From positions 992,001 through 1,056,000 of the forward strand of contig BSYQ01000002.1 of the NCBI GenBank assembly GCA_030272585.1: a stretch of 64,000 bases of DNA. Reading direction: 5' to 3'. The DNA is from Bryopsis sp. KO-2023. Taxonomy: Eukaryota > Chlorophyta > Ulvophyceae > Bryopsidales > Bryopsidaceae. Position 1 is the stretch's first letter. The number at the start of each line of letters is the position of its first letter. Shown here in pieces: positions 29,149 to 58,911 of this stretch. A program made the position numbers and the translations under genes. The notes beneath the pieces were generated by a model. The model searched no databases, was not told the origin of the DNA, and was given only the letters and a program-made list of their open reading frames with translations.

Positions 29149-29590
29149 ATGTCGAAAATGATTGGGATCGCTGTCTTGATCCTCATGGCTTCGACACGGG
29201 GAGTGGTTTCGAGGCCAAGAGTTCTGACGACAGGTACACGAGCGCACAAAGGAGCCTGTTTTCCAACGCTGCTCTTAGTTTCGGGTAAAACCCAGCTGCG
29301 CTTCACTAAATTCCAGGCAATATGATTTCGCAACCATTGTCGAGAAGTCTCGGAATCATGCAACCTGGTTTCGCTTGATGGGAGGCTTTGGTTCAGTGTT
29401 GAAGAACAACGCCGAACAAAGCATGAATATGAAAAGATGGTGCTCTGCAGGTCAGAAGGATTGGTGCAAAGCTTGCTCTGCGGCTTGGGATGGTTGCCTC
29501 GACTATGTTTTCTCATGCCAGGAGGGAGGCGGGCACCTGTGGTTGCCTGTGCAAGGGGACCAATTTGCGTGTTGTTGCAGATTCTCGTAA
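29149..29590 (+). CDS. Secreted cysteine-rich peptide 1
   Basis: Two exons, 29149-29233 and 29451-29590, joined in phase 1 (GTACAC donor, TGCAG acceptor), giving 74 residues. Exon 1 is exactly 85 nt and encodes a signal peptide (MSKMIGIAVLILMASTRGVV) ending SRP. The mature part has DWCKACSAAWDGC, FSC and a terminal CCC cluster, seven cysteines in all. The ATG sits in a strong context (GCGCCGCCATG). Two further genes (35312-35977 minus, 58385-58911 plus) share the exon-1 length, signal-peptide pattern and upstream sequence, so this is a real family. The function is unknown; a secreted disulfide-bonded peptide is inferred. Confidence 0.78.
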
Positions 29591-29869
29591 CCAAGCACAC
29601 GAGGAGGGTTTTTCTTTGTTATTGTTGGCAAAGGAGGAGAGAAAAAAGCAATCTTGACCGCTCTCGACTCGCCAAGGGAAAAAAAGACCAGGGTTTTGAT
29701 AAGAAAAAGAAAAGGGTGGAGATGGACCTGAACTCCCTTTTTTTCCATGAGAAGAAGTTTTCTTGAATCGTACTTTTTTTGGGGGGGGGGGGGGGCGGCA
29801 GGTCATTCGCTTTACACAAATTCTGCTTTTTTCTTTCTACTTTTTGTCCCACTTTGTCCAGTTTCTAAT

Positions 29870-30424
29870 TTGGAATGTCCAAGACTGTGCTGTGTTTGTA
29901 TGCGCGCATGCTTTGCCCTCTATAGAGCCAGAACTTATATATAGTCTTCAAACCACTCAGCAAAGCGAGAAAAAGCGTGACTTTCTGAAACTGACCCAAA
30001 ACCCAATTTCACCGCAGGGAGAAAAGAGAGTGACCTTCCAAAACCCAGTAAAAACAACGATCTGAATCTCACAGGAAAAGGGGAAAGAGAGTGACCACCT
30101 AAATCTCATTTACTAAGCCCCATTCTGAGAGAAGAAGGAAAGAGTGAGCTTCTCATCATGGGGACTTCCTTTTCTTTTTTGGATACATAAAAACATCCTG
30201 GGATGAACCCCACAACCAAGACCATCGTACAATAACAATAAAGTAAAAATGAAGCTCCAAACAACAGAAAAATAAAAAAATGTCCTCTCCAAGTAACACA
30301 TATTTTTTGCAAATCTCCACACCAATATCCGAAGTTTGGATTCCAAACCAAAGATATCAAACCAAGAATTGAAGACTGGAATGCGGAACAGAAAGCGGCA
30401 AAAGAGGGCAACGAACTAGCTAGA
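29870..30424. other. No gene seen
   Basis: Low-complexity stretches and short unsupported frames only. Confidence 0.3.
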
Positions 30425-30652
30425 TCATGTGCTCGTCGAATCAAAATTGCGGCGGGGGCTCCCGAGCGACATCAAAAGGTTTCTGAGGCTGGGGCAGTTC
30501 CCCGGGCGTTCTTCCAAACGGGGGTCGCTTGCTTGCTGCCATGTGGATGCTACACAGCGAGACCTAGCTACATCCCTTGCCGAGGTTTTCTCAAGAATGC
30601 CCTTTATGATATTCAAGGGCAGATCCCACTCCATGGCTGGAACTTGGTTCAT
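30425..30652 (-). pseudogene. Truncated F-box gene, WD40 part missing
   Basis: From an ATG at 30652 the minus strand encodes the F-box of the local family (MNQVPAMEWDLPLNIIKGIL, then TSARDVARSRCVASTWQQAS). It then leaves homology after about 50 residues and stops, with no WD40 repeats downstream. The upstream region is also copied (30655-31480). An isolated F-box could still bind SKP1, but a truncated duplicate is more likely. Confidence 0.75.
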
Positions 30653-30654
30653 TG

Positions 30655-31480
30655 GAATCCCTTGGGAATCAATCGGTGAAGAAGACCTACAACACATTAT
30701 ATCAACAATGTATAATGAACCAGCCCCCAAAGTCAGGATAGCTCTTTCTGGAACAGAACAAGTACAGAGCAATCGATTCTCCTGAAACATTCTTCAATCA
30801 CCACAGCCAGTCCAACAGGACCTTATCGAATCACTTGAAAACTATGAAAACCCCTTTTTCACAACTGATCGACGAACGACCACACAGCCGATGATCGGAA
30901 GGAAAAAAAACAGCCGACGTTTAGTCTGAAGCAAGTCAGCAACACGATATCTTTTTCGACCTCGAAGGAAACAGCAGACCGACAGAAGAAAAAGGACTGT
31001 CTTTTTCTCTCAGCGAAAAGGTGAAAAACAGAAACAGAAAAATGAGCGACAGAAGTTGAAACCCACGCACACCTTTTTTTTCCTTCGCGGGACGGAAAAA
31101 GCCGAACGTTTCGAAAAATAAAAAGCGTTGTGGTCCAGCAGCTCGCACCCACACAGAGAATCCACGTAGCCAGCAAACGTTGCGAAAAGATAAGAAATTA
31201 TCCTGCACACAACACAGCACAAACCCTGCCCCCCAATCTTTTAAGGGAAGAGACGACGGAGACCAGTAAGCGACTTCCAAGGGGAGCTGGACGTCCAAGG
31301 ATCTCGTTCCCGAAAAGAACGTGATAATGATCCCAAAAAAGCAAAAGCCCATCGATCGCTTTTTCACAGCGCAGCGGGAGGCTCCCGCCGGGAGCGTTCG
31401 ATTCAGATCTGGCCAGTGGTCTCACCCTCGGGGGGGGGTTGGGGTGAGAAGTGGAAACATTTGGGGTCCAGTCGGACAGG
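30655..31480 (-). repeat. Copy of the F-box gene 5' region
   Basis: Read on the minus strand this matches the regions before F-box genes 1-4 (22130-22540 minus, 26290-26870 plus, 36430-37090 plus, 50390-51050 plus). Shared blocks include GAAAAACGTTCGGCTTTTT-like and TTTTCGCTGAGAGAAAAAG-like stretches and a GGTCTGCTGTTTCC-like block. Confidence 0.6.
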
Positions 31481-33854
31481 GAACTGGGACACACTGGGGA
31501 GGGGAAAGACAGGATAAAAACAACATTGTAATTAGTTGATGATGGGTCTCTTTTGCTGAGCGATGTAATTATATATTGATTGATTGTAATGAGTTAGGGT
31601 TGTGAACTCCACACCTGCTGTCTGTCAAAAAAACTCGGTCGCAGTTGTTTGTGCTGACGTCGTGAAGCAATAGATCTGCTGAAAGTCTAAAAAATCACCT
31701 TGAAATAGTAAGGAGCAATAGAAGCCCCCTTAATGGCCTCTTTTTGCTGTAGTTAGTTGATTAATTGAAAATAAAAGCCTCCTGGGTGATGAAAGAATGG
31801 ATAGGGCCCTGCACGACTGTACAACCTTCAACCTCATATTTTTTAGTCACCACCAACCGTGTATATTGCCAAACAAGTGCCTGCGAAGGTGATTTCGGGC
31901 TCGTGGAAATCTCTGTTAGTTCCTGAATGGATGGAATCGCTCTTTTCCGTTCGGGGATATTGCAGACAAGTCAACAGCTCACAGATGAGTCAAAGCAAAG
32001 CCCTGAAAACTATCCTTGATCAATCAATCAATCAATGATGACATGTTGCCTAACTATCCCTGATACTGAAACAAGACTCAAGGGGGCCACAGGATATCTG
32101 CATTTCCCCAATAAATGTTTTGAGCAACATCCAACGAGTTGTTGCTGCTGTGCGATTGAATGAACGGTTAAATGAATTGGTCCTTGAAAGTTGCTTTTTA
32201 CCAAAGCAAAATTCGGTCAAGAATCTCCCAGCCTCAGAAAACTGATTTATCATCTCAACATCAGATCAAGAACCAAAAAAAAAATCAAAAAAAAAATCAA
32301 TTTTTCATCATCGGCTTGATAACTTACGATTGCTTCTGACGAAAGGAACTCGGCCAAGAAAAACTCAACGAAATTCGATTCAATTGAAACCTGAAGCCAC
32401 TGTTGGTGCAAAGTGAACAAAAGAACGAATCAAAGATAAATAGAGATGTTCCAATAATACTGAAATAACCTAAATTTTGTATTTGCAATGACCCACCACC
32501 AATTGGCGTACCAACCAGGCAAGAATATTACAAGACATGCCAGGCCAGAGTCTCAACGTCTGACCAGGATGGACTGGATCAATGACGCCCACACCTGAAG
32601 GATGCCTACAGCATCGGGGGAATACAACAAAACACACAGTTTACACTGCCCCAGGCCAGTTCCGGGTAGATTTTTGAAAGGCAGAACCAATCGGTAACCG
32701 ACAGTCCAGATTCAGGGACCAATAATAACCGCCAAATACGGCGCCGCCAGAAAAATCAACCGCCACGCCCAACGGAATTATTTGGACGGAGGAGACGACG
32801 GATATCGAGATTCACAAGGGCACCACAGCTTCGTTTGAAGTGACCTCCGCTAATGGCTCGTTCGAACAAAATACCAAACCGCCCCTTGTTGGAGAAAACA
32901 GGAGCGATCTCTCTGTGGGCAAAAATAGAAATTTTTAAGAAAGAATCGTTTCAATCAGAATTGTTTTTTTTTGGTGTGAAGAGAACAAAATGGGCCTGTG
33001 CAGAAGATAATAAGGAAGGGGCTGTGCAAAGGATAATAAGGGAATTCTGGTGGCACAGGCGATTCTGCCCCAGGATCAGCACCTGGTTCCTTTCCGGTTT
33101 GCGGCGGCATGATTGGAAAGTATCTGCGTCGTCAGACCCACTGCCATGGAGTGAAAAGTCTGACTAGGGTGGACTAGATCAACAGGTGCCCACCCCCAGG
33201 AAGAGGCCTGGACCCTTACGCCAGCCCCACAAGGACAACCTGTCGCGACAAAAACGAAACGTTATAAAGCAGACCATGGTTGACATCCATGTCGCAACTC
33301 CAAAAAAATAATAGACAGGCATCAACGCTTCTCATCTGAACAAACTCGGCAAAAGGTTGCCAACACCAGCACACAACCACCATTTCTCAACAACGCACTT
33401 AGAATACTTTTCACTGACAGGTAGCCTACCTGGATTCAGCAACACACTCTCGACGAAAAAAAGTATCTGAACGCGCACCTTGACTGGTGCAACCTCACGT
33501 TGGCTCAAAAATACGCCCCGGGGGTCAAACAATCAAGCGTTTCCAGAACAGCACGTTGCGCTGGATCAACTCCACTTCGTGGTTAGCTATGGAGGTATCT
33601 GAGTCAACCTCAACTGAGTACTTCCCTGCAACAAGAAAAAGAACTTACAAGCCGCCATGAAAGATCGAACGTGATTAGTAGGGAAAGCAGGCGACTAACC
33701 TGGTGGACGCGGACGCCACGGCAATGACAACGATCCAAGCGAGCATTGGGAAACCCAGGCCGTTTCGCAAGATAAACAGGCTAGAAACAAAAGAAACGTT
33801 GTCAGTGAGTGGCTGAGAAGTGCAGGGGTGGTGGAATACAAGCGCCGCCAATGT

Positions 33855-34265
33855 TTATGTAGGGAGGCGCCACATCCAAAAAGCGTCCACAATGCCCAAT
33901 TCGGCGCCTTTCTTGATACGATCTGGACCTTTTCCCGTGAATCTGCAAGATGGGGCATTGTCGAGCGGAAAGCACATCTCCGGCTGTCCTCCAACGGGAC
34001 TGACATCCAACCCTGCCCCGCCCTGATCGATCTTGTTGATGAGAAACTGAAGTTCAAAGAACCATCCAGTCATTGGATCAGTTGAATAAAACAATGTCTC
34101 CTCAATAGAAGAAGAGCTATCTGCACCGCTTTGTGGGAACAAAAAATCGGGCTTCACACAACACCCAGCCAGAAAAATCGGGCTCATTTTCTGTGTCTGC
34201 TGCTTTTTTGGTTTGTCGTTAGGTCTGGCAAAACGAATAGCGGCTGAAACAAAAGATTGCTGCAC
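33855..34265 (-). CDS. Duplicated hypothetical frame
   Basis: A frame encoding LFYSTDPMTGWFFELQFLIN and PSCRFTGKGPDRIKKGAELG is preserved in both duplication arms (second copy 45972-46463). Many of the differences change residues and the neighbouring block has a stop in one arm. It may be an old exon or chance. No family recognised. Confidence 0.25.
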   Translation of the reverse strand: MQQSFVSAAIRFARPNDKPKKQQTQKMSPIFLAGCCVKPDFLFPQSGADSSSSIEETLFYSTDPMTGWFFELQFLINKIDQGGAGLDVSPVGGQPEMCFPLDNAPSCRFTGKGPDRIKKGAELGIVDAFWMWRLPT

Positions 34266-34345
34266 AAGGTGGGGTTCGAACCCACGCGGAGACGAGCTCC
34301 ATCAGGTCTTAAGTCTGACGCCTTGGACCACTCGGCCACTTGTGC
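34261..34345 (-). tRNA. tRNA-Leu (UAA)
   Basis: 85 nt with a perfect 7-bp acceptor stem (GCACAAG/CTTGTGC), D arm GGCCGAGTGGTCCAAGGC, anticodon loop CTTAAGA (anticodon TAA), a long class-II variable arm, and T arm GTGGGTTCGAACCCCAC. No intron. The second copy is at 45717-45801. Confidence 0.92.
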
Positions 34346-35311
34346 CGACGGGAATTATTAAAAAATTTTGATCATAGTCTTAAATGGGTAGTTCCAGAAA
34401 AACACAGGAGGATCACTTGGACTTAAAGTAAACGAAGAGATGCAGGCGTTTTAATGTCTAAAAAAAGACTTTTCAAGGCTTTGAACTCTTAAACTGCTGA
34501 GTGAACTCTTATCTTGTTGTGTGGACAAACAAACAAACAAACAAACAACATTTACATTGTTGTGTGGACAAGACACCACTCAATTTTCATTCCGCCGGAG
34601 ATTTTTCTTTTTTCTCCTTCACCTCTTTCAAATTTTTTCATTTACCTTGGGACCGATTCAAGAGGGACCGATTGAAGAATTTTGTACGAGTCGAAGAAAA
34701 AATTTATTCGAGGTAAGGTTACTCTTTTTCTAGTTTCTGTTGTGAGATTGAGGTCGGAGCCACCAACCACAAACAAACAAACAAACATCATTTACATTGT
34801 GTAGGAGATGCCGCTCTCCTATTACAACGAATATATAATGATCCAATCTATTCCCATAGAATCAATTGTCTAATCTGAATTGTGGTTGTGCCAGCAACCA
34901 CAGTGGGCTTAAAAAAGAGATTGGGTTTGAGACGTCTTTTCCCATTTAAGAAATCTTTATGATGTTTTTTTCAAGTTTCTGTTGGGAGATTGAGGTCGGA
35001 GCCACCAACCACAGTGGGCTTAAAAAAGAGATTGGGTTTGAGACGTGTTGAATACACTCGTTCGCAACAGCGATACCGAGTGGTGAAACGGCCGCCAAAG
35101 AACGCTTTACTGAAAGTAAGCAAAATAAACGACACAATGACCAGTCCCTTCACTTCCTAAATAACCTCACTGAATTCATCTTTCCTATACTTTCCAGTCA
35201 TATCAAGATCGTTCCAATGTCCGACTATCGCCTGTTGCGATACACTAAATTCCACAGACGTCTTTTACCATTTAAGAAATACAGTTTCACATGAATTCCA
35301 CACCCAGAAAC

Positions 35312-35977
35312 TCATAGGACAGCCAAATGTTTACACAAAACGTCCCAGCCGAAATTTCTACAAGACATGCCTCTACAATCGAGGGGATACAGAAAAAACC
35401 TCAAAAATTCCCATTCCAATTTACTACTGGACTCTCTAAGCAGCCTCGATTTTGACTGAATGCCATCACAAAAAACCAACAAAAATGTGTGACAGGTGAG
35501 GAAGCCACCCCAGCACATGTCACAACTTGGCATAAAAAAAGGCACTGATGGATGTGTTCTACTAGCTTCGTTGGAGGAGGGCAGCAAGAGGTTCTGCTCT
35601 TTTCCTAGAAGACCGTGGCCAGCGAAGTCGTTGTCCCGTTTCATTTTCCCGAGAAAAGAGGTCGATAATCAAAACTGCAACGACACTTCATACGGCCGGG
35701 GCCGCTATGCACCGCTCCGTCCCCGCCTTCCCTGTGGATTAAAAACAACAACATAAACATCCAATACTCTGCTGAAAAAAGGACCACACTACGCCCAGAG
35801 ATAGTGGGTGGCACAATGCCGAGCAATCGCAGCTGAAGTGTTTGCTTCGATAAGAAGCGTTGTGAAAAAGAGCGTCCTCTCTCTGGCCGTACCATTTGGA
35901 ACAGCTACTGGTCGGGAAAGCACCCCCACTGTGAAAGCCATGAGGACCAAGACAACGATCGCGAACGATTTCGACAT
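35312..35977 (-). CDS. Secreted cysteine-rich protein 2
   Basis: Two exons, 35977-35893 and 35604-35312, in phase 1, about 125 residues. Exon 1 is again 85 nt and encodes a signal peptide (MSKSFAIVVLVLMAFTVGVL) ending SRP. Exon 2 differs from its relatives but keeps the spacing C-x2-C-x6-C-x7-C in PSCDMCWGGFLTC and LLVFCDG, and is longer, with extra cysteines near the end. The upstream 220 bases resemble those before the gene at 58385. Export is inferred; function unknown. The second exon is less certain than the first. Confidence 0.6.
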
Positions 35978-36210
35978 GGCGGCGCTAGAGAGAACACCAG
36001 TGGTTTTAAGACCTGAATTGATCGCCAGCCTATGATTCTTCGCTATCAGTGCGCTGTGAATATGACCCTGGTCTTAGCTTTAATATCAAGCGATTGGCGA
36101 GAGGTTGCTTTTTGGGGGATTCGGTTTTTGGCTTTTGGGTCGCCAGATCCTTGGCGAAGGATCCGTGGATCGTCGAATCTGATTCGCTGAGGTCACCCTA
36201 TCAATGCACA
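35978..36210 (-). promoter_or_regulatory. Conserved upstream region of cysteine-rich gene 2
   Basis: Reading toward the gene, this matches 58150-58384 over about 220 bases, including GGTGACCTCAGCGAATCAGA, CCAATCGCTTGA and CACAGCGCACTGATAGC-type blocks, ending in GCGCCGCCATG-like start context. A shared promoter and 5' UTR is inferred. Confidence 0.55.
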
Positions 36211-36287
36211 CAGCCCCGACTGGAAGTTGTGGCAGTCCATGAAACCTGGCACAGGGTTTTTCTTCGTTTTGTTCCCCCGATGCTATA

Positions 36288-36330
36288 GGCTCTGGCCTGG
36301 CATGTCTTGTAATATTTTTGGTTGGTTGGT
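36288..36330 (+). repeat. Copy of the GGCATGTCTTGTAATATTTT interspersed motif
   Basis: A full-length copy of an about 42-bp motif: GGCTCTGGCCTGGCATGTCT, then TGTAATATTTTTGGTTGGTT. Other copies are listed under the finding on this motif. Confidence 0.8.
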
Positions 36331-37091
36331 GTTTGGTCAGAACAGGAGTAGAAAGTGTTCTTCAAGTTGCACCATTCAGTTGGGTAGAAGATTGAGTGGC
36401 TCTTGACTCAACAGTCTTGAGTTCATATAATGATTGATTGATCTACGAATTGAAACGTACAGTCCGTACGTTCGCGTTCTGCTTGGGGCGATGCGTTGAC
36501 AGCTTCAGGCGAGTCAGTGTGGGGTCCTTTCAATTTCGACACGTTTGCTGGCTGCGTGGCTTTTTCGAGTGACTCAAAAGGCGCTGGCCGGCATGGGTTT
36601 TCCATTCCAGTCCGCTGTGGGCTGGTGTTCGATCGATACTCCCGAAAAGTAGAGGGTGGTTTTGGTTGCGTGGGCGTTTTTTTGTTACGACGTTTTTCCT
36701 GCGCGAAGGGAAAAAGGCAGGGTACGGAACAAAGCGGGTCTCGATCATATTGTTTTTGTTTTCGTCTCGTCTTGCACAGGATAACGACGGGGTCGGTTTT
36801 TTTTGGTGGAGGGGGGGGGGGGGGGGTTTTTCCTTTTTGTTTTTTCAAGAGGAGCGGGCATGAAATCGGCTTCTAAGTCTTGTCGAAGAACTATATTTTC
36901 CTGCCCAGAACGACGCACTCGCGTCAACACTTTCTAGAAATCTTTCTGGTTGGTTTCAACCGATCGGGGGAAAGGCTAAAAAACGATTGAATCTGTCGCC
37001 CGACTTCTATCGTCGACAGACTGTAGGGGCTGAATCATCCCGGCTGATGAGTGATTGTGTTTTTTTTTTCCTTCCAGCACGAAGGGGCAAG

Positions 37092-38162
37092 ATGGAATCC
37101 AAAAGACGACATCGATGGGACTTACATTCGGATGTCATCACTCAGATTCTGGCACCTCTCCCAGCAAAAGAGGTTGCAAAGTGTGCATGTGTTGCTTTAG
37201 CATGGAAGATTGCAGTCGATGATCCCACCTTGAAAAAAAAGATGGAGTTGGAAAAGTCTTGGAGGTGTGGGGATGTGAAGCCCATCACACTTCACTTGGG
37301 TGCCTTCTCGCAACAGTGTTCCAAAAGGAGAAGAAATTTGATTGCAGTAGGGTGCTCGACCTCCATTCACATATTGGATTTGAGGATGAGAAAAATTGTG
37401 AAGGTTCTTGAAACGGGAAAAAAGTGTTCTTGTCTTTGTTTACTCGAGGATGAGGTTTTGTGCGGTGACCGAGAGGGACTCATAAGTGTGTGGAACATTG
37501 AGGGGAGTCTTTTATCATCCCATTTCGAGGCACACACTGACGCCGTGTTATCCATTGTTGAGGCTGGAGACATGGTAGCAAGCGGTGGATATGATGATGA
37601 CATTGGGGTGTGGCGGCGAGGGACTTGGGAGTGTTATATGCGTCTACGACAAGGAGTTTCTAATTTTCCTCACATGTTGGCATGGTCTAGCGAAAACGAA
37701 CTTTTGTTTGTTGGAAATTCCAGTTGGATTTCTCGAGGGTGGGATATCTCAACAGGCAAACGTGTTCGAATTCTTCAAGGAGATTCACGCATTGGGGGAC
37801 CTTTTTGTGTTCATGAAGATTGGGTGTTGAGCTCCTCTGGCAAAACTACAAAACTTTGGAGTGTGAAAGATGAAGAGTGCAAGCAAGAATACCCAAGTTC
37901 AAGTGGGGTTCAATGTCTTGATATCCATGGTGATCGAATAGCAATTGGATCGAATGATGGGAAGGTGGATATTTGGGGCGTGGTTGAGAAGAAACTCATG
38001 AGATCGTTTCATATTGAGAGTCAGAATTTTTTGGGCTTGTGGTTGGGAGAAAGTGAGCTTGTGGCACTAGACTATCTTGGCAAGGTTACCGTTTGGGATT
38101 TCCAACCATGTTCAAAATGCAAGCATCCTAAAACGCGGTGGCTTGGAGGGGGGGAAAGATGA
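37092..38162 (+). CDS. F-box/WD40 protein 3
   Basis: 356 residues in one coding exon from the ATG at 37092. An acceptor (CTTCCAG) lies just upstream, so there is a 5' UTR intron. F-box: MESKRRHRWDLHSDVITQIL then KEVAKCACVALAWKIAV. WD40 repeats include LCGDREGLISVWNIEG, ASGGYDDDIGVW and GSNDGKVDIWGV. It is a direct paralogue of the gene at 51053-52072. The C-terminus is 17 residues longer because the paralogue's stop position is read through (PCSKCKHPK). Role inferred as SCF substrate receptor. Confidence 0.88.
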   Translation: MESKRRHRWDLHSDVITQILAPLPAKEVAKCACVALAWKIAVDDPTLKKKMELEKSWRCGDVKPITLHLGAFSQQCSKRRRNLIAVGCSTSIHILDLRMRKIVKVLETGKKCSCLCLLEDEVLCGDREGLISVWNIEGSLLSSHFEAHTDAVLSIVEAGDMVASGGYDDDIGVWRRGTWECYMRLRQGVSNFPHMLAWSSENELLFVGNSSWISRGWDISTGKRVRILQGDSRIGGPFCVHEDWVLSSSGKTTKLWSVKDEECKQEYPSSSGVQCLDIHGDRIAIGSNDGKVDIWGVVEKKLMRSFHIESQNFLGLWLGESELVALDYLGKVTVWDFQPCSKCKHPKTRWLGGGER

Positions 38163-38169
38163 ATCAGTG

Positions 38170-44810: not shown

Positions 44811-45716
44811 GACCGCGAGGGGAAGACTTCACTCCGCAGAACGACGCCAATGGTCGGACGAGCAGGGTTATTTTTCAGTCGTCCTGAGATGTTTGGTGTT
44901 CTCCAACGATATTCCATACATACCTATGCAAGAAACTGCTTGTCCAATTGGTGTTTGTTTTACAGAAATGTTCATACAGACCCAAATCTTAAAAAAAAAA
45001 AAGAAACTGCTTGTGTGCTGCAGCGTCTAAAATATGTTGTAAGTGTAAACAACAAAGTCGAAAAGTGGATGCTCTTTAAAATCCTGCCCAAGACGACTGA
45101 TAAATTGATCTTGCAAGAAACAGCTCAGAAAGAGGCTCTCCAAAAGAGGACAGGTAGCCCCAACCCCTAGTGTCATCATAAAGATTTCTTAAATGGTAAA
45201 AGATGCCTTAAACCCACTCTCCTTCAAAAACCCACTGCTGTTGGTGGCTCCGACCTCAATCTCACAACAGAAACTTGAAAAAGAGTAACCTTACCTTCAC
45301 TGAGTTTTGTCTTAGACTCATGGACAAAATTCTTGAATCTGTCCAAGCTTAAAGAAGAATTTGAAAGTGGTGTGAAGAAGAAGAAATTTAAAATTAAATG
45401 TAAGAATGAATAAACAAAATAAAAATCTTTGGTGGAATAAAAATTGAGTGGTGTCTTGTCGACACAACAAGAGAAGAGTTTACTCAGCAGTTTAAAAGTT
45501 CAAATTCTTAGACTGAAAATCAATAGTATTGGGTACAAAATCCTCTGACCACCCCAAAGAAAAACCAAATTTCAAAGTCTTAAGGAGTCTTTTTCTTTTA
45601 GACATTATAACGCCTGCATCTCTTCGTTTACCTCAAATCTAAGTCATCCTCCTCCTTTGTTTTTCTGGAACTACCCATTAAAGACTATGATCAAACTTCT
45701 TCAAGAATTCCCGTCT

Positions 45717-45801
45717 GCACAAGTGGCTCAGTGGTCCAAGGCGTCAGACTTAAGACCTGATGGAGCTCGTCTCCGCGTGGGTTCGAACCCCACCTTGTGC
45801 A
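45717..45801 (+). tRNA. tRNA-Leu (UAA), second copy
   Basis: Same length, acceptor stem, anticodon loop CTTAAGA and T arm as the copy at 34261-34345. The D arm reads GGCTCAGTGG rather than GGCCGAGTGG, which weakens D-stem pairing, so this copy may be less functional. Confidence 0.82.
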
Positions 45802-47727
45802 GCAATCTTTTGTTTTAGTTGCAATTCGTTTTGCAAGACCTAATGACAAACCAAAAAAGGAGCAGACACAGACAATGAGCCCGATTTTTCAGGCAGGGTG
45901 TTGTGTGAAGCCCGATTTTTTTTTCCCACAAAGAAATCTCTGCAGATATCTCTTCTTCTGTTGAGGAGACATTGTTTTATTCAACTGATCCAATGACTGG
46001 ATGGTTCTCTGAACTTCAGTTTCTCATCAACAAGATCGATCAGCGTGGGGCAGGGTTGAATGTCAGTCCTGCTGGAGTACAGCTGTGGATGTGCTTTCCA
46101 CTCAACAATACCCGATCTTGCAGATTCACGGCAGAAGGTCCAGATCGTATCAAGAAAGGCGGCGAATTGGGCATTGTGAACGCTTTTTGGATGTTGCGCC
46201 CCCCCTACATATTCACTGGGGGCTTGGATTCCTCCAGCCCAGCACTTCTCAGCCACTCACTGACAACGTTTCTTTTGTTTCTAGCCTGTTTATCTTGCGA
46301 AACAGCCTGGGTGTCCCTATGCCCGCCTAGATCGTTATCATTGCCGTGGCGTCGCCACCAGGTTAGTCCCCTGCTTTCCCAACTAATTGCGTTCGATCTT
46401 TCATGGCGGCCAAACCAGATTTTTTTTTTGTTGTTGCAGGAAAGCACTCAGTTGAGAGGTTGACCCAAATACGCCCACAGCTAACCATGAAGTGGAGTTG
46501 ATCCAGCGCACCATTCTGGGAACGCTTGATTGTCTGAACCCTGAGACGCTCAAAAATACGCCAACGTGAGGTTGCACCAGTCAAGACGGGCGTTCAGATA
46601 TTTTTTTCGTTGAGAGTGTGTTGCTGAATCCAGGTAGGCTACCTGTCAGCGAACTGTATTCTAAGTGCGTTGTCGAGAAATGGTGGTGGTGTGCTGGTGC
46701 TGGCAACCTCTTGCCTAGTTTGGTCAGATGAGAAGCGTTCATGCCTATTTATTAATATTTTGGAGTTGCGACATGGACGCCAACCATGGTGTGCTTTATA
46801 ATGTTTGTCGTTTTTGTCGCGACAGGTGGTCCTTGTGGGGCTGGCGGAGGGGTCTCTTCCAGAGGGGGTGGGTACCTGTTGATCCAGTCCACCTTGGTCA
46901 GACTTTTCACTCCATGGTAGTGGGTCTGACGACGCAGAGACTCTTTCGAATCATGGAGTCCCTGCAAACCGGAGAGTAGGCGGGTGTTGATCCGGTGGCA
47001 GAATCGCCACCAGAATGCCCTTATTATCTTCTGTACAGCCCCATTTTTTTCTCTTCACCAGAAAAAGATAATTCTGATTGAAACGATTCTTCCTTTTTTT
47101 TTTCTATTTTTGCCCACAGAGAGATTGCTCCTGTTTTCTCCAACAAGGGGCGGTTTGGTTTTTTGTTCGAACGAGCCATCAGCGGATGTTAAGCTGTGGT
47201 GCCCTTGTGAATCTCGATATCCATCGTCTCCGCCGTCTACATAATTCCGTTGGGCGTGGCGGCTGTTTTTATTGGCGAAGCTGTATTTGGTGGTTTGTTA
47301 TTAGTCCCTGACATCTGGACTGTCGGTTGCTGGTGCCCTCTTTCAGATAGCCTCCCGGAACTGGCCCGGGGCAGCGTTTCGAGGACGAAAAGGAGAAAGG
47401 ATGATGAAAACTCTGTGTACAAAAACACATCCTTGTATTTCCTGACTGCGGGCGTCAGTTCATCCAGTTCACCCTGGTCTTGTAATAATTTTGGCTGGTT
47501 GGTAGGCCAGTTGGAGAAAATTTCAAGTGCAAAATTAGGTTCTATTATTGGAGTATTTCAATTTATCTTTCATTTATTTCATAGAGCAGTGTCATGATGT
47601 TGTTTCTGTGCCAGCAGTGGCTTGAGGTTTCATTTGAATTGAATTTCGTTGATTTTTTCTTGGCCGAGTTCCTGCCTCAAGAAGCAATTGAAAGTTGCGC
47701 AGCCGATGATGAAAATTGTTGATGAAA

Positions 47728-48292: not shown

Positions 48293-48423
48293 GCCAGGAG
48301 GGCTGGTGCAAAGCTTGCTCTGCGTCTTGGGATGGTTGCTTCGACTACGTTTTCTCGTGCCAGGAGAGGCGGGCGTCCATCGAGATAGGGGACCAATTCG
48401 AGTGCTGTTGCACATTTGCTTGA
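48293..48423 (+). pseudogene. Orphan second exon of a cysteine-rich peptide gene
   Basis: After an AG acceptor the frame encodes GWCKACSASWDGCFDYVFSC and later ECCCTFA with a stop. This is nearly the mature domain of the gene at 29149-29590 and all seven cysteines are kept. No signal-peptide exon was seen upstream, so this copy is probably incomplete. Confidence 0.6.
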
Positions 48424-48739: not shown

Positions 48740-50258
48740 CAGGGTTTTTCCTAAGCACTCAGAGCTTCAAGCCACATGGCTTTTTTCTCCTCTTTCCTAT
48801 TTTTTTTTCCGCCACGTTGTGGCGTTGAGCGAGCTTTTTTAATTTTTTTTTTCAGCCAATGTGGCGTTTTGCTCAATCTCCTGGCTTTTTCTTACTATTT
48901 ATGCAACTCATCAGAACATTGTCCTTACATACACAAAACAATCGACAATCTCTCCTCCTTCCACAAGTCCACAAATACCCTTCCCGCGACTGATATCACT
49001 TTTTTCATTCATTCAAAACAATAGCAACCCCAGAAAACCCAAATCTAATCACGAAAAACACCACTTCCCTTTGCAAGAACATTTCTTCTATCCTTCGTTC
49101 TTCCCCACAATTGAAGAGTTTCCTTGTAGGGAAATGAACTGATATCAAACCGACAATTCTTTACTCTGATGCAACCGTTTAAATGATCTTCTTGCAGCCG
49201 GTTACGAACAATTGTTTTTGTCAAGTTCATTTCCGAAAATCTTCTCTCATTACTGACGCTCGTCATCGGTAGAATAAGCACAATTTGTGCCAACTTCACG
49301 AATTCCGAGCATAATCGAAGAACACCGGGGCTTTCCATCAGATGCTTTTAGCAATACTCCATCGATTGTATACGAAGATGAAGCTTTCATTGTCACTTGA
49401 AAAAGGTCAAACTGTGTGTTCAATTTTTCTTCATCAAGAAGGGGAAGAACCGTGGTATCTCCCTGAGCGATTTCTCGACAAAAATGTTTTTTTATTGTGT
49501 TGAAAAACCGTTCAATCAGTTCCCTCCCAGGGTCTTGGGCCCAAAAAAATGGTTGTAAAATAGAGAATGCAGAGAACAATTCTTTGGGAGGAAATCGGGT
49601 TTCGAAATCCGAAATCACAAGCTCTGAAGCTTCCTTCACTTTCACCTTAGTTCGTTCAAGAATGTCGAACCACATGTCCTCTGTTACGATTTCGGTCCTG
49701 TGTCCTCTCCCATTTTCATTTTTCTTTGTGGTCATAAGGTAGTGCTTCATACCACTCCCACAGTTGAAGGTGAGATAGCTGACGCCTTCATCGCAAAGGT
49801 CCAGTGGACTGTCCGTCTCTCCAACCGCTACGAAATTCCTCCAAATTCTTCCCGAAAAACTGTCCTCACTCATGTATTCCTGACGAATATATTATAGAGA
49901 CGCGGTGCAGGGGTTGAATTCGTGGTAGAGAGGGGAATGGAAACAATGGCGTTATAGACTTGTGGTGGATTTCCAGTCTGCACAACAGGGAGTTCAATTG
50001 TTCGATTGCACGTGGAATCGAACACCTTTGAACTATCTGGCGATTCGACTTTATTTCCGATATATTTCACTGGCCACAATGGCGATTTCAGCGATTTCTT
50101 GTGTTTTTCGACGGCCACTGAGTGGCGTATTGGCTTTACCAATTGTCTGAAATAGTGGCGTATTGCACGCTATTTCTTTTGAAATATGCCGCCACATTTG
50201 GCCCAATTTTGTTTTTTTCCGCCACATTGGCGGCTAAACGCCACTAAAAAAAACCCTG
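48740..50258 (-). mobile_element. hAT-type element, copy A (1,519 bp)
   Basis: Bounded by CAGGGTTTTT and AAACCCTG (short hAT-type inverted termini starting CAGGG) and by an exact 8-bp duplication TTCAGAAG. It has the same length as, and apparently identical sequence to, copy B at 52371-53889, in opposite orientation. Subterminal GTGGCG/CGCCAC motifs are repeated near both ends, as expected for transposase binding. The internal frames are broken in the same way as in copy B. Confidence 0.93.
49045..50142 (-). pseudogene. hAT transposase remnant, copy A
   Basis: Three overlapping frames (50142-49870, 49873-49250, 49338-49045) cover what would be a continuous transposase. The last contains the hAT C-terminal dimerisation motif (LPMTSVSNERRFSEMNLTK, then NRLQEDHL). 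At about 360 residues in total it is much shorter than usual hAT transposases (about 600-700). Either the gene is internally deleted or introns were missed. Likely mobilised by an enzyme made elsewhere. Confidence 0.7.
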
Positions 50259-50266
50259 TTCAGAAG
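50259..50266. repeat. hAT copy A target-site duplication (right)
   Basis: TTCAGAAG. Confidence 0.93.
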
Positions 50267-51052
50267 TGGTTTCTATTGCACTAAACTAGACTCATCACCC
50301 CACCTGTTTGAACGCCTAATCCGGGGGGATCACCCTGAAACCCCCCCCCCCCAGGTGTAAGGCCACTGCCCAGATCTGAATCAAACTCTCCCGTTACGTT
50401 GTGAAAAAGCGATTGATGGGCTTTCGCTTTTTTGGGCTTCGGTTCACGTCCTTTTGGGGCACGAGATCCTTGGACGTTCAACTCCCCTTCGAAGTCACCG
50501 ATCGGTGTCCATTGTCTTTTTATCTTTTTACCACGTTTGCTGGCTGCGTGGATTCTCTGTGTGGGTCTGCTGGACCGCAACGCTTTCATTTTGAAATCTT
50601 TCGGCTTTCTTCATTCTCTGTGTGGGTGCGATCTACTGGACCGCAACGCTTTCGTTTCGAAATCTTCCGGCTTTCTCTATTTCGCCCGGGAAGAAAAAGG
50701 TGCGGGTGGGTTTCGACCTCTCTAGCTGTTTTTTTCTTTCTGTGTTTTTTCCCCTTTTCGCTGAAATAAAACGACCGCCCTTTTTTTTTCTGCTGTGGGC
50801 TCGTTCGTCGACCATTTAGTGCATGAAATCGGCTTCTAAGTTTTGTCGAAGAACTATTTTCCTGTCCAAAAGAACGCACTCGCGTCAACATTTTCTAGAT
50901 TCTTTCTGGTTGATTTCAACCGATCGGGGGGAAGGCTAGAAAAAAACTGAATCTGTTGCCCGACTTCTATCGTAGACAGACTGTGTAAGGGCTGGATCAT
51001 CATGGATGATGTGTGATTGGTTTTTTTCTCCCTTCCAGCACGAAGGGGCAAG

Positions 51053-52072
51053 ATGGAATCCAAAAGACGACATCGATGGGACTTACATTCGGATGTCATC
51101 ACTCAGATACTGGCACCTCTCCCACCAAAAGAGGTTGCAAAGTGTGCATGTGTTGCTTCAACATGGAAGATCGCAGTTGACGATCCCACCTTGAAAAAAA
51201 AAGTGGATTTGGAAAAGTCTTGGAGGTGTGGGGATGTCAAGCCAATCACACTTGAATTGGGTCTCGTTTCGAAAAGTTCTGCCCGGAGGAGAAGAAATTT
51301 GATGGCAGTAGAGTCCTCGACCTCCATCCATATATGGGATTTGAGGATGAGAAAAATTGTGAAGGTTCTTGAAACGGGAAAAGAGACTTGTTGTCTTTGT
51401 TTACTCGAGGATGAGGTTTTGTGCGGTGACCGAGCGGGACTCATAAGTGTGTGGAACATTGAGGGTAGTGTTTTATCATCCCAATTCGAGGCACACACTG
51501 ACGTCGTGATATCCATTGTTGAGGTTGGAGACATGGTAGCAAGCGGTGGATCTGATAAATGCATTCGGCTGTGGCGACGAGGGACTTGGGAGTGTTATAT
51601 GCGTCTACGACAAGGAGCCTCGTATTTGCCTCATATCTTTGCATGGTCTAGCACAATGGAACTTTTGTTTGTTGGAAATGCCAGTAGGATTTTTCGAGGG
51701 TGGGATATCTCAACAGGCAAACGTGTTCGAGTCCTTCGAGGAGATTCGGACATCAGGGAACCTTTTTGTGTTCATGAAGATTGGCTGTTGAGCACCTCTG
51801 GCAAAACTACAAAACTTTGGAGTCTCAAAGATGGAGAGTGCAAGCAAGAATACCCAAGTCCAAGTTGGGTTACGTATCTTGCTCTTGATGGTGATCGAAT
51901 AGCAATTAAATCGATGGATGGGAAGGTGGATATTTGGGGCATGGGTGAGAACAAGCTTATGAGATCGTTTCATGTTGAGAGGCTTCTTATCGGCTTGTGG
52001 TTGGGAGAAAGTGAGCTTGTGGCACTCGACTATCTTGGCAAGGTTATCATTTGGGATTTCCTAACATGTTAA
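51053..52072 (+). CDS. F-box/WD40 protein 4
   Basis: 339 residues from the ATG at 51053, with a CTTCCAG acceptor just upstream. The first 25 residues are almost the same as in gene 3 (MESKRRHRWDLHSDVITQIL). WD40 repeats include LCGDRAGLISVWNIEG, ASGGSDKCIRLW and IKSMDGKVDIWGM, ending IIWDFLTC. It lies between two inverted copies of one hAT element. Role inferred as SCF substrate receptor. Confidence 0.88.
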   Translation: MESKRRHRWDLHSDVITQILAPLPPKEVAKCACVASTWKIAVDDPTLKKKVDLEKSWRCGDVKPITLELGLVSKSSARRRRNLMAVESSTSIHIWDLRMRKIVKVLETGKETCCLCLLEDEVLCGDRAGLISVWNIEGSVLSSQFEAHTDVVISIVEVGDMVASGGSDKCIRLWRRGTWECYMRLRQGASYLPHIFAWSSTMELLFVGNASRIFRGWDISTGKRVRVLRGDSDIREPFCVHEDWLLSTSGKTTKLWSLKDGECKQEYPSPSWVTYLALDGDRIAIKSMDGKVDIWGMGENKLMRSFHVERLLIGLWLGESELVALDYLGKVIIWDFLTC

Positions 52073-52362
52073 TTAGGATGCTTGGATTTTGAAACGCGGG
52101 GGCTTGGAGGAGGGGAAAAGATGAATCAGTGGCGAAAGTGTATGAAACTTTCTCAAGGTCGTTTCCTTGTTCTTTAAGAAACTTGATGTAAGGAAATAAA
52201 GGTAACGTTTTACACACTCAATTACTATGGAAGGATTGCATTAGCAGAAAACACAATTGATAAAACACATGTGTGTGTGTGTGTTCCTCAATTGTAAATA
52301 TATAATATTGTTAATTGCGGTATTCATAAGACGCCCTAGCACACGCGCACAGAAAAACCCGA

Positions 52363-52370
52363 GTCGTAAC
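52363..52370. repeat. hAT copy B target-site duplication (left)
   Basis: GTCGTAAC, repeated exactly at 53890-53897. The unoccupied paralogous site near 38393 reads GTCATAACCCCTG. Confidence 0.93.
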
Positions 52371-53889
52371 CAGGGTTTTTTTTAGTGGCGTTTAGCCGCC
52401 AATGTGGCGGAAAAAAACAAAATTGGGCCAAATGTGGCGGCATATTTCAAAAGAAATAGCGTGCAATACGCCACTATTTCAGACAATTGGTAAAGCCAAT
52501 ACGCCACTCAGTGGCCGTCGAAAAACACAAGAAATCGCTGAAATCGCCATTGTGGCCAGTGAAATATATCGGAAATAAAGTCGAATCGCCAGATAGTTCA
52601 AAGGTGTTCGATTCCACGTGCAATCGAACAATTGAACTCCCTGTTGTGCAGACTGGAAATCCACCACAAGTCTATAACGCCATTGTTTCCATTCCCCTCT
52701 CTACCACGAATTCAACCCCTGCACCGCGTCTCTATAATATATTCGTCAGGAATACATGAGTGAGGACAGTTTTTCGGGAAGAATTTGGAGGAATTTCGTA
52801 GCGGTTGGAGAGACGGACAGTCCACTGGACCTTTGCGATGAAGGCGTCAGCTATCTCACCTTCAACTGTGGGAGTGGTATGAAGCACTACCTTATGACCA
52901 CAAAGAAAAATGAAAATGGGAGAGGACACAGGACCGAAATCGTAACAGAGGACATGTGGTTCGACATTCTTGAACGAACTAAGGTGAAAGTGAAGGAAGC
53001 TTCAGAGCTTGTGATTTCGGATTTCGAAACCCGATTTCCTCCCAAAGAATTGTTCTCTGCATTCTCTATTTTACAACCATTTTTTTGGGCCCAAGACCCT
53101 GGGAGGGAACTGATTGAACGGTTTTTCAACACAATAAAAAAACATTTTTGTCGAGAAATCGCTCAGGGAGATACCACGGTTCTTCCCCTTCTTGATGAAG
53201 AAAAATTGAACACACAGTTTGACCTTTTTCAAGTGACAATGAAAGCTTCATCTTCGTATACAATCGATGGAGTATTGCTAAAAGCATCTGATGGAAAGCC
53301 CCGGTGTTCTTCGATTATGCTCGGAATTCGTGAAGTTGGCACAAATTGTGCTTATTCTACCGATGACGAGCGTCAGTAATGAGAGAAGATTTTCGGAAAT
53401 GAACTTGACAAAAACAATTGTTCGTAACCGGCTGCAAGAAGATCATTTAAACGGTTGCATCAGAGTAAAGAATTGTCGGTTTGATATCAGTTCATTTCCC
53501 TACAAGGAAACTCTTCAATTGTGGGGAAGAACGAAGGATAGAAGAAATGTTCTTGCAAAGGGAAGTGGTGTTTTTCGTGATTAGATTTGGGTTTTCTGGG
53601 GTTGCTATTGTTTTGAATGAATGAAAAAAGTGATATCAGTCGCGGGAAGGGTATTTGTGGACTTGTGGAAGGAGGAGAGATTGTCGATTGTTTTGTGTAT
53701 GTAAGGACAATGTTCTGATGAGTTGCATAAATAGTAAGAAAAAGCCAGGAGATTGAGCAAAACGCCACATTGGCTGAAAAAAAAAATTAAAAAAGCTCGC
53801 TCAACGCCACAACGTGGCGGAAAAAAAAATAGGAAAGAGGAGAAAAAAGCCATGTGGCTTGAAGCTCTGAGTGCTTAGGAAAAACCCTG
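52371..53889 (+). mobile_element. hAT-type element, copy B (1,519 bp)
   Basis: CAGGGTTTTT to AAACCCTG with exact 8-bp duplications GTCGTAAC. Same length and, as far as I can compare by eye, same sequence as copy A, in inverted orientation. The different target duplications show two independent insertions, and the lack of differences implies recent movement. Confidence 0.94.
52487..53584 (+). pseudogene. hAT transposase remnant, copy B
   Basis: Frames 52487-52759, 52756-53379 and 53291-53584. The first two touch by an ATGA overlap (stop of one inside start of next) and the third overlaps the second in another frame. The third carries the hAT dimerisation motif with SNERRFSEMNLTK. Breaks are the same as in copy A, so they existed before these insertions. 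Confidence 0.7.
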
Positions 53890-53897
53890 GTCGTAAC
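53890..53897. repeat. hAT copy B target-site duplication (right)
   Basis: GTCGTAAC. Confidence 0.93.
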
Positions 53898-56117: not shown

Positions 56118-56837
56118 GAAGTGGATATGTTTGAGCGCCGCATTTTTCAGTCGGGCACTTGTCCCTGCAGGGATATCACAACTGCTGTTGAATGAATGTT
56201 TGTTGGGTGAGGGTGTGCATGGGTGCTGTTGGAGCATTCTGTAGGATATGTCGAGATGTTTATTGGTGGTCGTGTTTTTTCTAGTCTCATAACTCATCCG
56301 AAAGTTATCTGGGAGTTGTGTAACAGCAAAAAAGGTGCTGGACTCAAATTTTATTCCTTTCTCATTTACATTCGTGGTGGTGTTTTACTTTACTCCTCAT
56401 AGATCCACTCTTCCTGAAATCCCTTTTCCATCTTTTGCAGAATCGTTCTTTGGGGCTACCTCCATGAAAAGACAAAAAAAAAAGAACAGACTAATGATAA
56501 TGACAATGAACAGACTAAAACTTCCTTGTACCCTGTTTTGTTGTGACACCTTTTTGTAAGGCTGGACAATCAAAGATAGGTCGGGGCTTCCAAAAATAGC
56601 AATCGGAGTCTGACAACACAGTGAACTTCATTTGAAGTGGACTTCGTGTTTTTTGGAACCTCGCCCGAGGATCAAAAAAGGAGCTTGTCTTATCGACGAG
56701 TACGAGATCTTGTTCTGCTTTCGAATAAAAGAAAGTTGCAAATCAAAGTAGAAGGTCGTGGACGCCGCGGAGGTTTGTGCCTGACCAGTCGAAACATTTC
56801 CTTTTTTTTCTTCGAAGGAGGAGGAAGCGTCAGAACC

Positions 56838-57277
56838 ATGATGTCCAAAAAGATGGTGTTGGCTTTCTTTCTGATTGCTCTGTGCGCAGTATCCGTCTCC
56901 GCTGGGAAGAAAGGGGGTGAGCTTTCGCGGTTGCAGCTGATCTCCTTCTCTATTGATCACTCAGGAGCGCCGCCATGAGTCATGGCACAGGATTTCGATC
57001 AAAGTCGCCACTGGCGGCGGCATAGAACCTGCTGAAGTTGGTGCTGTTGTGTCTGACTCCAGGCTACGACCCTGTTTACGTTGTGCCAACCAAAAAGGTC
57101 TGGACGCCCCCTCCTCCTACCAAGAAAACCATCGTGATCGTGGATCCCCCACCTCCTCCGCCTGAGAAAAAGGTGGCCTCGCTGAATCCAATGAATCTCA
57201 GTTTTTTCAAGTGCCCGTTGAGGGAGGTTGAGTTGCGATGTTGTTTGCAGGTGGTCGTTATCGGCAAGAAGGGGTGA
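56838..57277 (+). CDS. Small secreted proline-rich protein, copy B
   Basis: Exons 56838-56916, 57063-57172 and 57251-57277, all with GT-AG junctions and phases matching copy A, 71 residues. Signal peptide MMSKKMVLAFFLIALCAVSV, then GKKGGYDPVYVVPTKKVW, two proline runs, and VVVIGKKG at the end. Differences from copy A are conservative, so both appear to be under selection. It lies 700 bases downstream of the intact ankyrin gene, mirroring the arrangement of copy A. Function unknown. Confidence 0.8.
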
Positions 57278-57369
57278 ATCTCCGCGACGGACAGGTTAGC
57301 TCAGCTGGTCAGTTGAAGCTTCTTTGTGGATCCGATAAGTTGTAGTATTGGCGGGATTTTTCTTTGTTT

Positions 57370-57407
57370 CTGGCCTGGCATGTATTGTTATATTTTTGGT
57401 TGGTTGG
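57370..57407 (+). repeat. Copy of the GGCATGTCTTGTAATATTTT interspersed motif
   Basis: TGGCCTGGCATGTATTG followed by a T-rich block and GGTTGGTTGG. The inverted counterpart is at 18535-18576. Confidence 0.75.
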
Positions 57408-57409
57408 CG

Positions 57410-58149
57410 TTTCTCTTTTTCGGGTTGATAGATTCCTACAGGTGGAGAGGGTTACTGAATCTCAGTGTGATGCCGCTTCAGATCAAGCTGCAAAAAATTC
57501 CCGCCATGATCGCGAATTTTGAACAAGATGCGATTTCACTTTTTGGTTGGGTGTGGTGTAGTGCAGGGTCCGCTTCAGTCTTGATTCAGGTCGGGAATTG
57601 AATTCACTAGTTAATGCCTGATGTTAGTTTACTTTTCACACTTGTTCCAAAACCAGGCATAGTTTTTGGGGCGTCGCTGTGACTCATCTGTGAACTGTTG
57701 ATTTGTCTGTAATATTGTGAACGAAAAAGAGCGATTCTATTCATTCAGGAACAGCAGCTACTTGTTTGTCTGTTGGAGCCTTGTAGGACAAGGGGCCATT
57801 GCATTGTGTTTTTTTGAAAAGAACTGTTGCAAAGAACTGCCAGTGTTGGTGATGTGGAGTTCGTGGAAAACCCCAATGTCCGAATCGATTCTCTAAGGTT
57901 CAAATTTGTATCTTGGATATGCCCCTGTCCATTCTTTTCACCAGAAGACTTTTATTTTCATTTTTTTTCTGGCGACGGCACCACCCAGAACTCAGTTTTC
58001 CTCGTTGATGCCTTTATTCTTTTGCATTCGCCTGTGAAGAGAGCCTAACACCACCCCCTTGAAGCGAGTCGGGGTTTCGGGTGCGTATGAGCCCCACCCT
58101 GGCTCTTTGGAGAGTCAGGGACTGCCACAACTACCAGTCAGTCAGGAAT
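57410..58149. other. No gene seen
   Basis: Short unsupported frames only, between the proline-rich gene and the cysteine-rich gene promoter. Confidence 0.3.
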
Positions 58150-58384
58150 GCGTGCGTTGATATGGTGACCTCAGCGAATCAGAGTAGACCCAAAAGGCGT
58201 GAACCGAATCCCAAATAAAGCGACCTCTGGCCAATCGCTTGAATACGCTGATTTGTTCGATCCATCGCTTGGCAATAAATCTGAAGCCCAATTTTCACAG
58301 CACACTGATAGCATTGAATTAGCTGGCGATCGATTCAGGTCAAAACCACCTGGTGTTTTTTGAAGTCGTCGGGCGTGCGCCGCC
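58150..58384 (+). promoter_or_regulatory. Conserved upstream region of cysteine-rich gene 3
   Basis: Matches the reverse of 35978-36210 and, near the start codon, 29050-29148 (blocks TTTTCACAGCACA and GTGCGCCGCCATG). Likely promoter plus 5' UTR. Confidence 0.55.
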
Positions 58385-58911
58385 ATGTTGAAACCTCTCG
58401 CAGTCTCTGTTTTGATCCTCATAGCTTCAACCAGGCGGGTGATTTCTAGGCCAGTAGATTCTACGACAGGTCCGCCCAGAGAGGGGGCTCTTTCTCAAAA
58501 CGCTATCACGCCAGGTGCGTTGACCATTGTTCTCCAGACGACGTGGCAGTTTCTCTCCGGTTCTTGCCCCCAATTTTGGAGCCTTTTCACTTGGCTGGGT
58601 TTCTTCTCTTGTTTTGAGGGCGAACGCAAAGTCCAACGAAAAATCTTACAAGATAATATGCCAGACCAGAGCCTGGAGCATCAGGAAGGCCAACCAACCA
58701 ACCAACCAAAAATATGACAAGATATGCCAGGTGAGATCCAAAGAACTGACGATTCAATCGTTTTGTTTTTTCTGCAGCCAATCTGTTTTGGTGTCGTGAC
58801 TGCGTGGAGCTCTGCTTCGTCGTCGCTCGAAGCTGCACGACAGCAGGCGGCACCTCGTCGAAATACAAGAAAGACTTTGGGGTTGGGTTCAGAGTTTGTT
58901 GCGAGCTTTGA
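58385..58911 (+). CDS. Secreted cysteine-rich peptide 3
   Basis: Two exons, 58385-58469 (85 nt) and 58778-58911, phase 1, 72 residues. Signal peptide MLKPLAVSVLILIASTRRVI ending SRP. The mature part has FWCRDCVELC, RSC and a terminal VCC before EL and the stop, six cysteines. The pattern W-C-x2-C ... C ... S-C ... C-C is shared with gene 1. The intron contains a copy of the short interspersed motif. Function unknown; export inferred. Confidence 0.75.

Follow-up and report, generated by a model that had tools for sequence, protein, structure and literature searches.

A family of cysteine-rich peptide genes with an exchangeable signal-exon module, near-confined to one chromosome of the green alga Bryopsis sp. 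KO-2023

We analysed a 64,000-nt stretch (the window) of the genome of Bryopsis sp. KO-2023, located at positions 992001-1056000 of contig BSYQ01000002.1 (C2; 8.83 Mb, in an assembly of 91.09 Mb and 28 contigs), which carries members of a family of two-exon genes for small cysteine-rich peptides. These genes probably represent a multigene family of disulfide-stabilised interaction or defence peptides of the secretory pathway, diversified by duplication and by exchange of a 5′ module. The 5′ module comprises the promoter region, an 85-nt signal exon and most of a phase-1 intron, and the 3′ module a cysteine-rich exon of about 45–60 codons for a six-cysteine domain with a predicted beta-alpha-beta-beta fold. 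Splicing, secretion, disulfide pairing and the signal-peptide nature of exon 1 are predicted from the sequence.

Three copies of exon 1 were found in the window (genes A, B, and C; Table 1). All three run from ATG to a GT donor in phase 1 and encode a hydrophobic N-terminus ending in SRP, and exon 1 queries against the whole window found only these three. The first-pass annotation of this DNA had proposed an exactly 85-nt first exon ending in SRP with related upstream sequence, and these features were seen at all three loci. For genes A (29149-29590) and C (58385-58911), its coordinates were right to the base, each gene having a phase-1 intron and a cysteine-rich exon 2. With the predicted splicing, the open reading frames (ORFs) of genes A and C encode 74 and 72 amino acids, and the mature parts read WCKACSAAWDGC..SC..CCC and WCRDCVELC..SC..CC, respectively. 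The proposal that all three genes have C-x2-C second exons did not extend to gene B, whose exon 2 had been misassigned. The C-x2-C ORF ending at 35312 was rejected as this exon, because it sits in the 3′ flank past the family stop codon; this ORF lies downstream of where L036 and L037 have their stop codon, and L036 retains the stop of the ORF itself whereas L037 has lost it. Gene B consists of a true signal exon and a broken family exon 2, in which, compared with L036, a short deletion at the start of the exon removes W-C-x2-C. An orphan A-type exon 2 (48293-48423), missed by the first-pass annotation, showed 89% identity to gene A exon 2 over 80 nt. Another signal exon was sought for orphan exon 2 copies; none was found in L013, L014, or L035, and L017 yielded one weak candidate.

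Thirty-four two-exon models were tried on C2, window genes A, B, and C included. In 29 of the 34 models, an ATG is followed by a GT donor at precisely +85, and 30 models had an intact ORF through a cysteine-rich exon 2 with the pattern W-C-x2-C..C-x6-C..CC, counting G739 (GC donor). The models off the +85 rule were G739, C154 (21 nt longer), H695 (3 nt longer), A816 (GTG start), and A698 (84 nt, frame broken), and those that were not intact were A561, A698, A816, and gene B. The layout seen in the window is beyond chance, because it recurs in the C2 models. In whole-genome searches, in which the match counts are lower bounds, at least 24 matches were obtained with the 5′ DNA of gene A (24/24 on C2), at least 29 with the gene A exon 2 peptide (29/29), at least seven with the gene C exon 2 peptide (7/7), at least five with an H-type peptide (5/5), and at least 51 with an exon 1 consensus (46/51). 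Among the off-C2 exon 1 matches, one on C12 was convincing (E 5.6e-4; MSKAIAFVFLVFLASSVGVFSRPVQ in L068), with no six-cysteine exon in the 751 bases examined there; the other four (E 0.06-0.2) are probably chance matches. The peptide family is near-confined to one chromosome, C2.

The C2 list comprised 56 candidate peptide loci, some of them single-exon, and some exon-1-only and exon-2-only entries (e.g., e647 and C650) could be the halves of one gene. This list omits three C2 exon 1 matches at E 0.07-0.10 (373185, 374294, and 406610) and includes F756, F1086 (E 0.145 and 0.41), and e6898, whose sequences were unread. Among 12 representatives, the promoter word TTCACAGC occurred only in window genes A and C (winA and winC), C154, and B1069, and GCGCCGCC was located within 250 nt of the ATG in 8 of the 12. 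A family-like signal, MSKLLAS..LVLSTVGV.SRPVGFG, was also observed in L066 (2038-2424, minus strand) and L037 (685-768, plus strand); in L066, where no GT stands at +85, the same ORF runs on into another type of cysteine-rich tail with the end GDFKLCC.

Identity between pairs of genes broke off sharply along their length. B568 and B942 were 96% identical in the 5′ flank (300 nt), 95% in exon 1, and 97% in the intron, whereas exon 2 fell to 69% and the 3′ flank to 43%, which is background; the drop begins at the end of the intron. H877 and H879, located 1.4 kb apart, have first exons that are 98% identical and also share the beginning of the intron; exon 2, at 36% identity, aligns only at the cysteine motif. 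Exon 2 of H877 is instead 95% identical to that of H695 and 91% to that of H6865, with exon 1 identities of only 82% and 85%, respectively. The trees of the two gene halves were in conflict. The 5′ module tree joined B568 with B942 (support 95/99) and rejected B568 with B1069 in the approximately unbiased (AU) test (p-AU 0.0003), whereas the exon 2 tree joined B568 with B1069 (97/95). Likewise, H877 and H879 were joined in the 5′ tree (97/95) and rejected by the exon 2 tree (p-AU 0.003), both p-values being optimistic for reasons given below. Given these identity breaks and conflicting trees, the earlier description of the signal exon as interchangeable is borne out. Promoter region, signal exon, and intron have moved as one unit onto different mature exons, and the breakpoints lie within the intron or where exon 2 begins.

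The mature domain was compared across 17 aligned exon 2 sequences. W-C-x2-C and the final cysteine were invariant (17/17), and three further cysteines were each present in at least 90% of the sequences. The third and fourth cysteines were spaced C-x6-C in 15 of the 17, one of the others lacking the third cysteine and one the fourth. Mean column identity was 67% for exon 1 (11 chosen sequences) and 44% for exon 2 (17 sequences), a contrast that is rough because the sequence sets differ. AlphaFold predicted a beta-alpha-beta-beta mini-fold, confidently for the two subfamilies of genes A and C, and the last strand usually carries CC. The first-pass annotation had named no family, and our searches agreed. 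The 17 members gave two single weak Pfam matches at E up to 1 (E 0.047 and 0.23, to unrelated families) and no relative in a PDB sequence search, and the proteins of genes A and C had no Pfam match. In four fold-search lists of the best 50 matches each, no defensin was among the matches listed, an absence that is not an exclusion. The best BFVD fold match (E 0.063), an uncharacterised phage protein, was taken as chance. Gene A gave 6 and 80 pattern matches in viral (IMG/VR) and prokaryotic (GTDB) contigs, respectively, and tblastn confirmed none of them as a homologue. The gene plan is of a known kind; the family appears to be new and its cysteine framework distinct. The net charge (K+R-D-E, residues 21 to the end) of 16 representatives ranged from -9 to +8, with acidic members in the H-type (-6 to -9) and the D-type (-3). 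Such a spread of charge is easier to reconcile with varied targets than with a single, uniformly cationic antimicrobial mode of action.

In the D-type and C-type genes, exon 2 is subject to purifying selection, as expected of a protein that is being maintained. Among D-type copies, 10/0/30 differences fell at first/second/third codon positions over 10 non-independent pairs, so that p-values are only a guide; 12 were nonsynonymous and 28 synonymous (pN/pS, the nonsynonymous to synonymous ratio, 0.09), and the D-type introns were only 83–91% identical. The C-type exon 2 ratio was 0.33. The remaining exon 2 comparisons were uninformative (A, 0.39 with p 0.05; B, 0.86; B′, 0.23 from four differences; H, 0.76; and G, 1.04). 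The earlier comparison with rapidly evolving secreted peptides is right only in part, since the D-type and C-type exons are conserved. Positive selection as the main cause of exon 2 divergence is unsupported by the substitution counts, and the unrelated 3′ flanks point to recombination instead.

In the mechanism that we favour, segmental duplication together with ectopic recombination or gene conversion would keep the targeting and expression module uniform while the mature domains diverge, with the 5′ unit being transferred by gene conversion or unequal exchange. Divergence under a uniform 5′ module would resemble other recognition or defence peptide repertoires, and the peptides may act on other organisms (microbes, endophytic bacteria, or grazers) or on other cells of the same species. 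Several observations weigh against this interpretation. Two of the four AU tests were borderline (0.058 and 0.055), and the AU p-values are optimistic, since the exon 2 tree places H879 on a long branch and the tested groups were picked after the identities had been seen. No comparison gave a significant nonsynonymous excess; exon 2 of B568 and B942 (B vs B′) gave a pN/pS of 1.27 (p 0.52). Constraint on exon 1 was mixed rather than uniform, with low ratios in the G-type (0.13) and B-type (0.28) and higher ones in the C-type (0.60), D-type (0.78), and H-type (1.19). Part of the family is decaying, as seen from its broken or orphaned copies (A561, A698, A816, gene B, and the exon-2-only loci). 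The closely similar D-type copies could also be passengers of larger repeats.

In an alternative explanation that we consider unlikely, only a few genes are functional and the other copies, some of them decayed, are carried along with repeats and F-box/WD40-type genes on a single repeat-rich chromosome, the mosaic being a product of neutral recombination. Many duplications do cover 1–3 kb around a peptide gene, broken copies and orphan exons are present, and the window is full of segmental repeats. The purifying selection on D-type and C-type exon 2 and the 30 intact models out of 34 speak against such a by-product of duplication.

The gene plan recalls the nodule-specific cysteine-rich (NCR) genes of legumes, which mostly have two exons, signal then mature, and four or six cysteines (PMC9515463). 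As in the NCR and defensin-like peptides of land plants (same source), the signal lies in exon 1 and the mature cysteine-rich part in exon 2 (30/34 models), and the family is large and variable. The algal peptides differ from them in their C-x2-C..C-x6-C..CC spacing, in their occurrence in a green alga, and in being nearly all on one chromosome; exon 1 is exactly 85 nt in 29/34 algal models, compared with 45–138 bp in pea NCR genes (PMC9515463). Conotoxins also combine a conserved signal region with a divergent mature region built on a cysteine framework. Their introns are conserved within a superfamily, the mature exon changes most, rare recombination is proposed, and eight of the nine superfamilies studied have three exons, superfamily A having two (PMC3862624). 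Unlike in the conotoxins, which are animal peptides, whole 5′ modules in the alga are visibly exchanged between genes with clearly different second exons. The likeness to NCR peptides and conotoxins is a parallel in repertoire building, not kinship. EHEE mini-proteins in the PDB (gEHEE_06, 5jg9; MOPD-1, 7rjf) are among the closest known systems. Defensins of the cysteine-stabilised alpha-beta type have a C-x3-C motif in their helix and a C-x-C motif in their last strand, and no row of the 17 aligned members has both elements. In a survey of 12 plant species, peptides with a signal made up most of the cysteine-rich peptides in every species except green algae (PMC5557327).

An endophyte-managing or defence role is the simplest guess, because Bryopsis harbours specific endophytes and can survive open wounds (PMC3252328). 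A narrower version, in which antimicrobial or endophyte-managing peptides act like legume NCR peptides on bacteria inside the coenocyte, has a small chance of being correct in our judgement. The two-exon layout and the four-to-six-cysteine mature peptides match those of NCR genes (PMC9515463), and Bryopsis has stable, specific endophytic bacteria, for which intrinsic selecting mechanisms have been suggested (PMC3252328). Many members are acidic, however, and no sequence relation to defensins or NCR peptides was found in the Pfam and PDB sequence searches.

F-box/WD40-type genes lie next to the peptide genes in the window (Table 1) and have undergone a very large expansion on the same chromosome. 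Two window proteins of this type used as queries gave 102/119 and 97/115 matches on C2; only the best 119 of 338 and 115 of 381 candidates were scored, so the share off C2 may be larger. After merging, 157 of 180 scored loci were on C2 and 23 elsewhere. An F-box reached the Pfam cut-off in one of the two WD40-type proteins scanned (37080-38162), 25 of 38 matches being listed for the second. The peptide and F-box/WD40 families have thus expanded on one and the same chromosome, and their members are frequently neighbours: 36 of the 56 peptide loci had an F-box/WD40-type gene within 3 kb, above the control maxima of 29 and 27 (means 18.4 and 17.6) in 500 local shifts each of up to 30 kb and 100 kb. 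All 13 D-type genes had one 1.2–1.8 kb downstream, five on the same strand and eight on the opposite strand.

Table 1 Peptide gene features and neighbouring F-box/WD40-type genes in the window.
Feature	Position	Strand	Remarks
Gene A exon 1, 85 nt, signal-like MSKMIGIAVLILMASTRGVVSRPRVLTT	29149..29233	+	C2:747921 locus 98% identical in exon 1
Gene A intron, 217 nt, GT...AG, phase 1	29234..29450	+	Sequence
Gene A exon 2, mature domain GQKDWCKACSAAWDGCLDYVFSCQEGGGHLWLPVQGDQFACCCRFS + stop	29451..29590	+	AlphaFold mean pLDDT (predicted local distance difference test) 82.6
Gene B exon 1, 85 nt, MSKSFAIVVLVLMAFTVGVLSRPVAVPN	35893..35977	-	Protein identical to exon 1 at C2:697120, 741845, 942866
Gene B family exon 2 remnant, a truncated copy: second half only, two cysteines	35644..35727	-	
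Orphan A-type exon 2, GQEGWCKACSASWDGCFDYVFSCQERRASIEIGDQFECCCTFA + stop	48293..48423	+	No family exon 1 found upstream
Gene C exon 1, 85 nt, MLKPLAVSVLILIASTRRVISRPVDSTT	58385..58469	+	
Gene C intron, 308 nt, GT...AG, phase 1	58470..58777	+	Sequence
Gene C exon 2, ANLFWCRDCVELCFVVARSCTTAGGTSSKYKKDFGVGFRVCCEL + stop	58778..58911	+	AlphaFold mean pLDDT 92.7
WD40 gene of the neighbouring family, 1.2 kb upstream of gene A	26870..27934	+	
F-box/WD40 gene head-to-head with gene B	37080..38162	+	F-box at Pfam cut-off
F-box/WD40-type gene downstream of orphan exon 2	51041..52072	+	
F-box/WD40-type gene tail-to-tail with gene C	60780..61868	-	Start approximate
Further F-box/WD40-type gene	20946-21986	-	
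F-box/WD40-type fragment	near 30526-30665		

It is improbable, in our view, that the two families form a linked recognition or incompatibility system, with secreted peptides and neighbouring F-box/WD40 proteins as matched partners. The F-box protein, as substrate receptor of a Skp1-cullin-F-box (SCF) ligase, would recognise or clear a cognate or non-self peptide, comparable to S-ribonuclease (S-RNase)/S-locus F-box (SLF) or toxin-antidote pairs. S-RNase/S-locus F-box loci combine a secreted polymorphic product with many F-box genes close by (PMC6649718), and the putatively secreted algal peptides often lie near F-box/WD40-type genes. The algal product differs in being a peptide of about 50 residues and no RNase (genes A and C had no Pfam match, and the 17 exon 2 domains no credible one), and the partners carry WD40 repeats. 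The concentration of both families on C2 and the proximity counts favour a linked system, as does the pair WD37/WD51, in which pN/pS was 0.19 in the first 50 codons and about 1.0–1.3 from codon 100 on, with the N-terminus under constraint and the WD40 part free to change. This pattern was not seen in WD20/WD26, WD51/WD60, or WD26 vs L003 and L042. When the co-duplicated D-type genes are left out, 23 of 43 loci have an F-box/WD40-type gene within 3 kb (control means 17.1 and 16.0, maxima 26 and 25), which is not clearly above local density; as this value lies inside the control range, the counts do not establish specific pairing. No more than 56 of the 157 F-box/WD40-type loci could be the closest F-box/WD40-type gene to a peptide on the list, and the F-box itself reached the cut-off in one of the two proteins scanned. 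A broader version, with C2 as a recognition chromosome on which dozens of secreted, 5′-module-swapped six-cysteine peptides are paired with expanded F-box/WD40 ubiquitin-ligase receptors, is highly speculative, and so is its corollary of a ligand-receptor or toxin-antidote self/non-self system in a giant coenocytic alga that heals its wounds and reassembles from spilled cytoplasm.

Other features of the window were also recorded. The F-box/WD40-type gene at 51041-52072 is surrounded by a perfect inverted repeat of 1,519 nt (arms 48740-50258 and 52371-53889, 2,112 nt apart), each arm of which contains the same 213-aa ORF; one copy was scanned and had no Pfam match. A short repeat with a core near CTCTGGCCTGGCATGTCTTGTAATATTTT.GGTTGGTTGG was located close to peptide genes (36272-36329, 57350-57407, 58947-59004, 59266-59323, and 59832-59889) and may mark one end of a small mobile element. 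A 687-aa stop-to-stop ORF (23520-25583, plus strand) matched DDE_Tnp_1_7, which we take to be piggyBac-like, and is flanked by inverted repeats (22790-23142 and 25720-26073). Two tRNA-Leu(UAA) genes (34261-34345, minus strand; 45717-45801, plus strand) sit in a duplicated inverted segment, about 91–93% identical, around 33257-34412 and 45650-46806. In the assembly as a whole, CCCTAAA/TTTAGGG repeats were present at 5 of the 12 contig ends examined. Contig C28 (91,672 bp; first 10 kb read) is a plastid contig, the best PDB matches of its rbcL being plant-type large chains (the second best, 1gk8, presumably from Chlamydomonas), and further ORFs on it were interpreted as plastid genes.

Our literature search found no description of such a peptide family or of an F-box/WD40 expansion in Bryopsis among the matches listed. 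The C2 genes appear to represent a large set of cysteine-rich peptides in a green alga, and the libraries searched yielded no relative. The exchange of promoter-signal-intron modules is visible directly in the sequence and provides a natural test of how such repertoires form. To our knowledge, wound healing, endophyte control, and mating compatibility in coenocytic algae are poorly understood at the gene level; should the association with F-box/WD40-type genes prove functional, it would suggest that these algae have a recognition system.

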